A stretch of 64,000 nt of DNA, taken from NCBI RefSeq assembly GCF_000468035.1, contig NZ_KI260523.1:1-64000 (forward strand), written 5' to 3'. Made by a program: the position numbers and the translations under genes. The DNA comes from Selenomonas sp. oral taxon 892 str. F0426 (GTDB lineage Bacteria; Bacillota; Negativicutes; Selenomonadales; Selenomonadaceae). Under the pieces are notes generated by a model, which ran no database searches, had not been told where the DNA came from, and worked only from the letters and a program-made list of their open reading frames with translations. Positions 7,377 through 9,956 of this stretch are shown here, piece after piece; position 1 is the first letter of the stretch; the number at the start of each line of letters is the position of its first letter.

Positions 7377-7730
7377 ATGATGAAGAAGTTCGGTATTTTC
7401 CTCAGTGTATTTGCTCTTATTTGGATGGGCGTATCTGCGCTTCATCTGACAAATCCATATCTGCGCTCATCGGAATTCATTGAGGTGAATGTATCGCGTG
7501 GTGAGAATATCTGGACGATTGCACGTAAATATGCGACAAAGGAGACAATGGCGGAGCAGCTTGAGGAGGCAATCATCGAGGTGAATGGTCTCGCACCGGA
7601 CGGTGCCGTCACAGCAGGACGCCGTCTGCGTGTTCCCGTGCTTGAGCCTACAGAGCAACTGCAGGCAATGGCGGAACATAAATCCCTTGACACAGCTGCC
7701 CGTGCGCCTTATAATGACGTTACCGAGTAG
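7377..7730 (+). CDS. LysM-domain membrane protein, YneA-like
   Basis: A 117-residue protein with an N-terminal hydrophobic anchor (about residues 5-24) and one extracytoplasmic LysM domain (about 37-90: VNVSRGENIWTIARKY ... LAPDGAVTAGRRLRVP). The size and layout match YneA of Bacillus, an SOS-induced inhibitor of cell division in which a membrane segment precedes LysM. Similarity outside LysM cannot be judged by eye, so this is an analogy. Two adjacent ATGs (7377 and 7380) follow GGAGGGG. The LexA-like half-sites in its promoter favour an SOS role. The last 14 codons contain a perfect promoter pointing at thrS. Other possibility: a general peptidoglycan-binding protein. Confidence 0.65.
   Translation: MMKKFGIFLSVFALIWMGVSALHLTNPYLRSSEFIEVNVSRGENIWTIARKYATKETMAEQLEEAIIEVNGLAPDGAVTAGRRLRVPVLEPTEQLQAMAEHKSLDTAARAPYNDVTE
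7687..7715 (+). promoter_or_regulatory. consensus promoter for thrS inside the LysM gene
   Basis: TTGACA (7687-7692), exactly 17 nt, TATAAT (7710-7715): both hexamers are perfect. It lies wholly inside the 3' end of the LysM coding region, so transcription should start around 7722, only about 20 nt before the thrS leader terminator. Confidence 0.75.
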
Positions 7731-7756
7731 GGTGGAAACATATAGCCTTGTCCCTA
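7728..7756 (+). promoter_or_regulatory. T-box-like antiterminator core before thrS
   Basis: TAGGG (7728-7732) can pair with CCCTA (7752-7756), leaving a 7-nt bulge TGGAAAC (7733-7739) that matches the T-box bulge UGGNACC at 6 of 7 positions. Three further weak pairs (ATA with TGT) extend the helix. The 3' strand GTCCCT is also part of the following terminator stem, so the two folds exclude each other as in a T-box. No Stem I or specifier loop fits between the promoter and this element. Confidence 0.4.
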
Positions 7757-7794
7757 TGGGATGGATTTCCTATCCCAAGGGGCAAGGCTTTTTT
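7744..7794 (+). terminator. terminator/attenuator in the thrS leader
   Basis: AGCCTTGTCCCT (7744-7755) pairs with AGGGGCAAGGCT (7778-7789) for 12 bp. An inner stem TGGGAT/ATCCCA adds 6 bp, and six T follow. It may end the LysM transcript, attenuate thrS, or do both. Confidence 0.85.
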
Positions 7795-7801
7795 GTATGA
7801 G

Positions 7802-7839
7802 GGAGCACCGATGGATGACATCATTTTATCAGTGGCTCC
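7802..7839 (+). promoter_or_regulatory. hairpin just upstream of the thrS ribosome site
   Basis: GGAGCAC (7802-7808) and GTGGCTCC (7832-7839) can pair with one bulged base. The hairpin ends a few bases before the AGGAGAG ribosome site, so it could influence translation. No function is established. Confidence 0.3.
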
Positions 7840-7857
7840 TATGAGAGGAGAGCGTTT

Positions 7858-9777
7858 ATGATAAAGCTGACACTGCCGGATGGTTCTATTCGTGAGGCAG
7901 AGGCGGGGACAACGCTGCTGGACGTTGTAAAGGGAATGAGCAATTCACTCGCGAAGAAGGCACTTGCCGCGAGTCTGGACGGCAGAACCGTCGATCTGAC
8001 GACGCCTGTGACACAGGACGCCGCATTTCGGGTGCTGACCTTTGACGATGAGGGAGGGCGCCTTGCCCTGCGCCATACGAGCGCGCATATCATGGCGCAG
8101 GCGGTAAAGCGCCTTTATGCGGACTGCAATGTGCAGCTCGCCATCGGACCCGCGATCGAAAACGGCTTCTACTACGACTTTGATCTCGAACGTCAGCTGA
8201 CGGATGCTGATCTGCGTGACATCGAAAAGGAAATGAAGAAGATCGTCAAGGAGAATCTGAAGCTCGAACGCCGTGAGATCCCCCGTGCGGAGGCAATCGA
8301 GTTCTTTCGCGCAAAGGGGGAGAACTACAAGGTGGAGTTGATCGAGGATCTGCCTGCGGACGTGACCATCTCGACCTATACACAGGGAGAGTTCACGGAT
8401 CTTTGCGCAGGGCCTCACGTCCTGTCCACGGGCAAAGTAAAGGCGTTCAAGCTGCAGAGTGTGGCGGGTGCGTACTGGCGCGGCAGTGAGAAAAACAAGA
8501 TGCTGCAGCGCATCTACGGCACGGCATTTGAAAAACAGGAGGATCTGGATGCCTACCTCCACATGCTTGAGGAGGCGGCAAAGCGTGACCATCGCAAGCT
8601 TGGCAAGGAGCTGGATATTTTCAGCCTACATGAGGAGGGACCGGGCTTCCCGTTCTTCCACCCGAACGGCATGATCCTGCGCGATGAGCTGCTGAAATAC
8701 TGGCACGAGGTACATCGCCGCTACGGCTATCAGGAGATCAGCACGCCGACGATCCTCAGCCGCAAGCTCTGGGAGACCTCGGGGCACTGGTTCCACTATC
8801 GCGAGAATATGTACACGACCGAGATAGATGACGAGGACTATGCGATCAAGCCGATGAACTGTCCCGGCTGTATGCTCGTCTACCGTTCGCAGCTCCACAG
8901 CTACCGTGATCTGCCGCTGCGTTTGGCGGAGCTTGGTGTTGTTCACCGTCACGAACTGTCCGGTGCACTGCACGGCCTTTTCCGCGTCCGCAGGTTTACA
9001 CAGGACGACTCGCATCTATTTGTGACACCCGCCCAGCTGGAGGGGGAGATTCAGCATACGATTGACCTCTTTGACGAGGTCTACAATACGTTTGGTCTCA
9101 CCTATAAGGCGGAGCTCTCGACGCGCCCCGAAGACTCGATGGGCTCAGATGAGATGTGGGAGATTGCGACAGAGGGGCTGCGCAAGGCTCTTGAGAATCG
9201 CGGGCTGGATTTTGTGGTGAACGAGGGCGACGGCGCGTTCTACGGGCCGAAGATCGACTTCCACCTGCGCGACTCCATTGGGCGCACGTGGCAGTGCGGC
9301 ACGATCCAGCTCGACATGAGCCTACCCGAGAAGTTTGACCTCACCTATGTCGGCGAGGACGGGGAAAAGCATCGTCCCGTTATGCTGCACCGCGTCGTCT
9401 ACGGTTCGGTCGAGCGGTTCATCGGCATCCTGATCGAGAACTATGCGGGTGCGTTCCCCGTGTGGATGGCGCCCGTACAGGTGCGTATCCTTCCGATCAC
9501 AGAACGTCATGCGGCATACGCAGAGCAGCTGCGTCAGAAAATGTTCGGTCTCGGCATTCGCGTTGCAGTGGATGACCGCAACGAAAAGACGGGCTACAAG
9601 ATCCGCGAGAGTCAGGTCAAGAAGACGCCGTACACGCTCGTTGTCGGCGATCAGGAACAGGAGAATCATACCGTCGCGCTGCGCAAGTATGGTGAGAAGG
9701 ACAGCGCAACGCTGACTGTGGATGATTTTATCGCACTCGTGCAGGAAAAAATTGCGACACGCGCACAGGAGTATTGA
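7858..9777 (+). CDS. thrS: threonyl-tRNA synthetase
   Basis: A 639-residue class II aminoacyl-tRNA synthetase that charges tRNA-Thr, close to the usual length. A TGS domain covers about 1-62. The editing domain has HTSAH (73-77), C183 and H187 (DLCAGPH), which hydrolyse mischarged Ser-tRNA-Thr. The catalytic core has the zinc cysteine C335 (MNCPGC), motif 2 around HRHELSGALHGLFRVRRF, and motif 3 (HRVVYGSVERFIGIL). The anticodon-binding domain follows. AGGAGAG precedes the ATG. The leader contains a terminator and a T-box-like core, so attenuation by uncharged tRNA-Thr is a reasonable guess. The stop codon overlaps the -35 of the infC promoter. Confidence 0.98.
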   Translation: MIKLTLPDGSIREAEAGTTLLDVVKGMSNSLAKKALAASLDGRTVDLTTPVTQDAAFRVLTFDDEGGRLALRHTSAHIMAQAVKRLYADCNVQLAIGPAIENGFYYDFDLERQLTDADLRDIEKEMKKIVKENLKLERREIPRAEAIEFFRAKGENYKVELIEDLPADVTISTYTQGEFTDLCAGPHVLSTGKVKAFKLQSVAGAYWRGSEKNKMLQRIYGTAFEKQEDLDAYLHMLEEAAKRDHRKLGKELDIFSLHEEGPGFPFFHPNGMILRDELLKYWHEVHRRYGYQEISTPTILSRKLWETSGHWFHYRENMYTTEIDDEDYAIKPMNCPGCMLVYRSQLHSYRDLPLRLAELGVVHRHELSGALHGLFRVRRFTQDDSHLFVTPAQLEGEIQHTIDLFDEVYNTFGLTYKAELSTRPEDSMGSDEMWEIATEGLRKALENRGLDFVVNEGDGAFYGPKIDFHLRDSIGRTWQCGTIQLDMSLPEKFDLTYVGEDGEKHRPVMLHRVVYGSVERFIGILIENYAGAFPVWMAPVQVRILPITERHAAYAEQLRQKMFGLGIRVAVDDRNEKTGYKIRESQVKKTPYTLVVGDQEQENHTVALRKYGEKDSATLTVDDFIALVQEKIATRAQEY

Positions 9778-9803: not shown

Positions 9804-9810
9804 ATCTTCT

Positions 9811-9906
9811 GTTACAAGCAGAAGCCACCGCTTCTCACCTGCGGACATTGTGTGCGTTGGGTCGAATGAAAGAATTTTTAAGGGTGGCTTTGTGCCGCCC
9901 TTTTCT
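9811..9906 (+). ncRNA. L20-type ribosomal protein leader with attenuator
   Basis: The untranslated leader contains a hairpin AGAAGC-CACC-GCTTCT (9820-9835) and, further down, a terminator AAGGGTGGC/GCCGCCCTT (9880-9902) followed by TTTTCT. GCCACC (9824-9829) is exactly complementary to GGTGGC (9883-9888) in the terminator, giving a competing antiterminator. In Firmicutes such leaders before infC-rpmI-rplT bind ribosomal protein L20 and prematurely stop transcription when L20 is in excess. Assignment to this class rests on position and on the pairing scheme; I have not scored a covariance model. Confidence 0.7.
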
Positions 9907-9956
9907 ATTGCCGGATGGCGTTTAGACGTGCATCCGAACCAGGAGGTGTTCTTGCC

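Follow-up and report, generated by a model that had tools for sequence, protein, structure and literature searches.

Relation to Known T-Box Systems

Current models hold that a T-box requires a decoding domain and a discriminator containing Stem III. Stem I itself is able to shrink, as the short and ultrashort Stem I T-boxes illustrate, but these act on translation and keep the specifier, reportedly a feature of every known T-box variety (PMC7583486). T-boxes without Stem II and the IIA/B pseudoknot, i.e., glyQS and C. acetobutylicum alaS (PMC4695836), are likewise reduced and work with a terminator and an antiterminator, yet they retain Stem I, the specifier, and Stem III. Here, we describe the leader of thrS, the threonyl-tRNA synthetase gene, in a stretch of 64,000 nt from Selenomonas sp. 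oral taxon 892 str. F0426 (hereafter, the window), which has none of these three elements. Its closest relative is the transcriptional (class I) thrS T-box (RF00230) of other genera in the family, to which it is homologous: the gene, the promoter, helix A1, the UGGN bulge beside A1, and the overlapping terminator are the same. Compared with that T-box, it lacks Stem I, the specifier, Stem II, the IIA/B pseudoknot, Stem III, and the purine string, its helix A2 is weaker, and its terminator is longer. The literature searched contained no description of a T-box devoid of Stem I, which is weak evidence of novelty because most subscription papers were outside its coverage. Although several parts are believed necessary for such a switch, it may still function here in a minimal form, and the leader offers a natural minimal construct with which to ask whether an antiterminator core alone senses tRNA charging.

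Antiterminator Core and Terminator of the thrS Leader

All parts of the leader region are given in window coordinates on the + strand (Table 1). The initial annotation had described a TTGACA-17-TATAAT promoter inside the LysM gene, followed by a T-box-like core of TAGGG, TGGAAAC, and CCCTA, and both are present as described. The bulge TGGAAAC matches the T-box consensus UGGNACC at six of seven positions, and, as in a T-box, UGGN opens the 7-nt bulge on its 5′ side, next to helix A1. CCCTA does overlap the terminator, so that terminator and antiterminator exclude each other, but the terminator hairpin folds as 20 bp instead of the 18 bp proposed earlier. The fold of the leader has an energy of −54.9 kcal/mol (z −4.5).

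For comparison, thrS was located in 14 genomes representing 14 species of oral Selenomonas/Centipeda (L001–L014). The distance from the −10 element to the GGG of the core is only 14 nt in all 14 species, in agreement with the reported lack of Stem I. Indeed, neither Stem I nor a specifier was found in any of these leaders, and Stem III with its flanking purines (RRRxG-Stem III-AA) is also missing, the leader being too short, while relatives retain the AA preceding the core. A Stem I hidden farther upstream was rejected, since that stretch is LysM coding sequence with the promoter downstream of it. RF00230 gave no match above its gathering score in the window, nor any near the leader when the threshold was relaxed to E = 10.

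The promoter, TAGGGTGGAA(A/T)C, and the terminator precede thrS in each of the 14 genomes, and the energy of the leader through the terminator end ranges from −28.9 to −57.3 kcal/mol. Conservation of the bulge in relatives had been named earlier as a test; AGGG and UGGA are kept in all 14 congeners, UGGA also in the 45 distinct cores extracted from the family, and UGGAA of the bulge is invariant within the genus. The variable bulge base (A/U) takes both values in full T-boxes as well (L070, L074). With G-U pairs allowed, A1 is intact in 12 species (G-U in L002, L004, and L005; U-G in L003 and L008). The gap between core and terminator carries insertions of up to ~30 nt in some congeners; an inserted hairpin occupies the antiterminator loop of L003 and L008, where A1 belongs to the minimum-energy fold of the prefix. 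A single A2 pair differs on both strands from the family T-boxes (A-U in place of G-C), which is one event and hence not strong evidence.

Palindromic hairpins of the type GGA..CACTGAT..ATCAGTG..TCC occur in the thrS leaders of L002–L009, L012, and L014, and in the window at 7801–7840. Their positions differ by species, inside the antiterminator loop or past the terminator, as if they were mobile. Since the hairpin at 7801–7840 is absent or displaced in other species, it lies outside the conserved switch. The terminator apex GATTTCCTATCCC (7764–7776) is invariant in all 14 species, although the opposite pairing strand varies.

Origin by Deletion from a Family thrS T-Box

A full T-box with AGGGTGGAACC(G/A)CGA...TCGTCCCT stands ahead of thrS in most of the family's other genera; of the 20 family thrS loci scanned, among them two from g18 that have no core, 11 exceeded the Rfam cut-off. 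In 55 loci from 21 genera, a promoter with no mismatch (53 loci) or a single one is found 180–230 nt ahead of the core, vs. 14 nt in the study genus. In g15, g16, g17, g21, and g22, the order is LysM gene, promoter, T-box, and thrS, and the LysM homologue stops just short of the promoter. AAATCCCTTGACA is identical in L029 (g16) and the window. Because these relatives share the promoter, the LysM gene order, and a full T-box, the comparison demonstrates that the leader is a family thrS T-box by descent, from which ~165–215 nt (Stems I–III) were deleted in the ancestor of the genus, joining the old promoter to the antiterminator. The earlier suggestion of a remnant that had lost Stem I is thus strongly supported, the relatives having the same promoter, gene order, and T-box, including Stem I.

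That the core merely resembles a T-box by chance within the terminator of the LysM gene had also been considered. Nothing was found that speaks for this except the overlap of TAG with the LysM stop codon, and TAGGGTGGAAAC persists in L012 and L014, where the LysM frame terminates earlier, so that coding does not maintain TAG in those species. The family-wide homology to thrS T-boxes, the presence of the layout in all 14 genomes, its conservation, and the lack of a comparable site in its own genome refute the idea, to which we assign a practically negligible probability.

A search of the 14 congeneric genomes with RF00230 found no T-box, whereas other genera of the family have 1–19 T-boxes per genome in 14 of 15 genomes and in 12 of 13 genera (g28 has none; g18 has one). 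The entire genus appears to have lost Rfam-detectable T-boxes, several of which persist in most of the family's other sampled genera. A covariance model of the core alone detected the thrS leader with E ≤ 3e-6 in eight genomes and weakly in three with insertions; it failed on L003, L008, and L012, whose leaders carry hairpin insertions. Neither this model (best E 0.07) nor a pattern search revealed further convincing stripped cores in the 14 genomes, and the thrS leader is the sole place in them where a T-box trace was found.

In g18 (L046 and L066), a T-box-type terminator stands ahead of thrS, and the 5′ core is gone. These leaders show what a dead T-box leader looks like, and they indicate that retention of the core is not automatic. 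One bacterial family thereby documents the stepwise loss of a T-box: full, core and terminator, terminator only, and none.

Selection on the Core

Across the 14 species, fourfold sites of thrS are near saturation, with a mean pairwise difference of 0.45 and 6.6% invariant sites. The core AGGGTGGAAAC has undergone a single parsimony change in 11 columns, whereas 11 fourfold sites drawn at random have 38 changes on average and a minimum of 13 in 100,000 draws. The core is therefore under strong selection. The neighbourhood is not uniformly frozen, since only 6 of 17 columns of the promoter spacer and one of four in the 5′ strand of A2 are invariant. Taken together, these comparisons demonstrate that purifying selection maintains the core, the bulge, and the terminator; in a genus otherwise without T-boxes, selection has preserved nothing but the tRNA-tip-binding core as the species diverged.

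A neutral relic of a dead T-box would fit the disappearance of the other T-boxes of the genus, and single-species truncations elsewhere do resemble decay, such as that of Mesobacillus L121, which has UGGC where 19 congeners have UGGU. Yet a relic should not stay almost unchanged when neutral divergence is nearly saturated, and in g18 it is the core that vanished while the terminator stays; we consider this explanation very improbable.

Selection could also act on a 5′ element recruited for another role, in the transcript start, in RNA stability, or in contact with some other RNA or a protein. It occupies roughly positions +7 to +18 of the transcript, and both ACC (+1 to +3) and the loop segment GATTTCCTATCCC of the terminator are invariant as well. 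However, the conserved letters are exactly those of the T-box bulge inherited from the family, and its putative pairing with the loop of the terminator does not exceed chance expectation (P 0.06 and 0.37), which makes recruitment improbable in our estimation. An alternative antiterminator in which GGGUGGAAA would pair with UUUCCUAUCCC of the terminator loop did no better than shuffles.

Match to tRNA-Thr and Proposed Mechanism

The two isoacceptors of tRNA-Thr retrieved, UGU and CGU, end in U73-CCA in all 14 genomes. Among the tRNAs seen, U73 occurs otherwise only on tRNA-Gly. The bulge UGGA is the exact complement of the UCCA end of tRNA-Thr, with the variable base of UGGN matching the discriminator base. 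Selection on the core and this match together favour sensing of the tRNA tip. We tentatively put forward, at somewhat less than an even chance, that the T-box remnant left after deletion of Stems I–III works as a stripped transcription attenuator responsive to the tip of uncharged tRNA.

In such an attenuator, the hairpin at 7744–7789 would end most transcripts of the strong promoter by default. In the nascent RNA, UAGGG could capture CCCUA first and block the terminator, the short helix being marginal by itself. The UCCA end of uncharged tRNA would pair with UGGA of the bulge, stack on A1, and most likely steady the helix. Poorly charged tRNA-Thr would then lead to more read-through into thrS. 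In the absence of a specifier, selectivity would come only from the discriminator base (U73, for Thr and also for Gly) and the local tRNA concentration. The mutually exclusive folds are evident from the pairing; that the leader attenuates transcription, and that the UCCA end of uncharged tRNA relieves this, is what we infer. A leader-peptide attenuator was rejected: the frame GTG GAA ACA TAT... is open in L001 and stops after three codons in L011 and L013, with no Thr run and no ribosome-binding site.

Several observations weigh against tRNA-tip sensing. According to PMC7583486, tRNA is not appreciably bound by an antiterminator that lacks Stem III, and the Stem III purines belong to the sensor of charging; the absence of Stem III here accordingly disfavours such sensing. 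Structures bearing A1 are not more stable than the alternatives in most species. A1 is broken at its outermost pair in L005 and at an A-U pair in L012. A2 is down to 1–4 pairs and is not kept in all species: 3–4 pairs can form in L001 and in the L011/L013 types, and it is mostly broken in L003, L008, L012, and L014.

Given that tRNA hardly binds an antiterminator devoid of Stem III, a close rival, though one that we rate as rather unlikely, is a fixed attenuator that works independently of tRNA. UAGGG would set the fraction of read-through by competing for the 5′ strand of the terminator and so balance the strong promoter, and UGGAAAC would be kept for folding or loop geometry. The abolition of tRNA binding expected from the loss of Stem III (PMC7583486) fits this possibility, as does the conservation of the A1 strand and the terminator in all species beside a weak A2. 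It leaves unexplained the invariant unpaired UGGAA, including the A that matches U73 of tRNA-Thr.

Similar Truncations in Other Bacteria

A pattern scan of one genome per species (84,980 species) for a promoter and a core within 25 nt returned 38 stretches, nine of them from the study genus. Five matches outside the genus precede amino-acid genes: a class II Asp/Asn-type synthetase (L098), alaS (L102), ilvD (L114, from open reading frame (ORF) reading), tyrS (L120), and an SNF symporter (L121). The Mesobacillus L121 leader has a longer counterpart with the same core and terminator in 19 congeners. The Bipolaricaulota L098 core is genuine sequence but is missing in the three closest relatives, and it was set aside as a one-off. 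Most other matches outside Selenomonas (e.g., L097, L104, L111, and L130) show no features of a T-box and resemble ribosome-binding sites or chance occurrences. In the Moraniibacteriota (L106), a glyS-like gene has a very short T-box-like leader with a UGGAACC core and a Stem III-like hairpin.

The nearest parallel is found upstream of alaS in the family of HGW-Firmicutes-8. Of seven members, four (L144, L147, L149, and L150) have a perfect promoter, a short linker, a core, and a terminator, spaced too closely to accommodate Stem I; the leader of L146 is full length, and those of two others look decayed. These cores differ from the thrS leader in their independent origin, in their occurrence in few species, and in a less constant core (UGGUACC, UGGCGCC, and UGGUGCC). 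The alaS leaders of L144–L150 represent several stages of T-box truncation. Such truncation is recurrent, but a tight constraint on the core is apparent only for thrS of the study genus. A further reading, possible but less likely than not, is that the thrS leader is a functional, genus-fixed, T-box-derived attenuator of ~70 nt that senses the 3′ end of uncharged tRNA on its own, without an anticodon-reading or Stem III domain, a state possibly reached independently elsewhere (alaS).

Promoter, LysM Gene, and Neighbouring Features

The LysM ORF contains the thrS promoter in its 3′ end and closes with a TAG stop codon that supplies the first letters of TAGGG. Judging from the relatives, the LysM frame has lost an earlier stop and now reads across the promoter to this TAG; the C-terminus of the LysM protein is extended by translation of former promoter DNA. 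The gene is YneA-like, YneA being an SOS cell-division suppressor in Bacillus.

Table 1. Features of the thrS leader region of Selenomonas sp. oral taxon 892 (window coordinates).
Feature	Position	Strand	Basis or remark
LysM-domain gene, YneA-like	7377–7730	+	ORF; Pfam LysM 28 bits over cut-off; NCBIfam YneA 38.8 bits (cut-off 60)
Sigma-70-type promoter, ancestral thrS T-box promoter	7687–7715	+	TTGACA 7687–7692, 17-nt spacer, TATAAT 7710–7715; 12/12 consensus; unchanged in 14 species; perfect in 53/55 family members
Predicted transcription start (A, 7 nt past −10)	7722	+	Inferred from promoter position; ACC 7722–7724 (+1 to +3) invariant in 14/14
Helix A1, 5′ strand UAGGG	7728–7732	+	AGGG invariant in 14/14, kept in nearly all family T-boxes
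T-box bulge UGGAAAC	7733–7739	+	UGGA in 14/14 and in 45 distinct family cores; complements tRNA-Thr 3′ end UCCA
Helix A2, residual 5′ strand AUA	7740–7742	+	Weak pairing with UGU 7749–7751; 1/4 columns invariant
3′ strands of A2 (UGU) and A1 (CCCUA)	7749–7756	+	CCCUA 7752–7756; doubles as part of terminator 5′ strand
Intrinsic terminator, excludes antiterminator	7744–7794	+	20-bp hairpin 7744–7789 and U tract to 7794
Second hairpin, between terminator and ribosome-binding site	7801–7840	+	Lost or relocated in other species
Shine-Dalgarno of thrS	7844–7852	+	Sequence
thrS, threonyl-tRNA synthetase	7858–9777	+	TIGR00418 731 bits (cut-off 384)

Downstream of thrS, an L20 leader (RF00558) is located at 9810–9912, upstream of infC, with 54.9 bits, slightly under the Rfam gathering score of 58.7.
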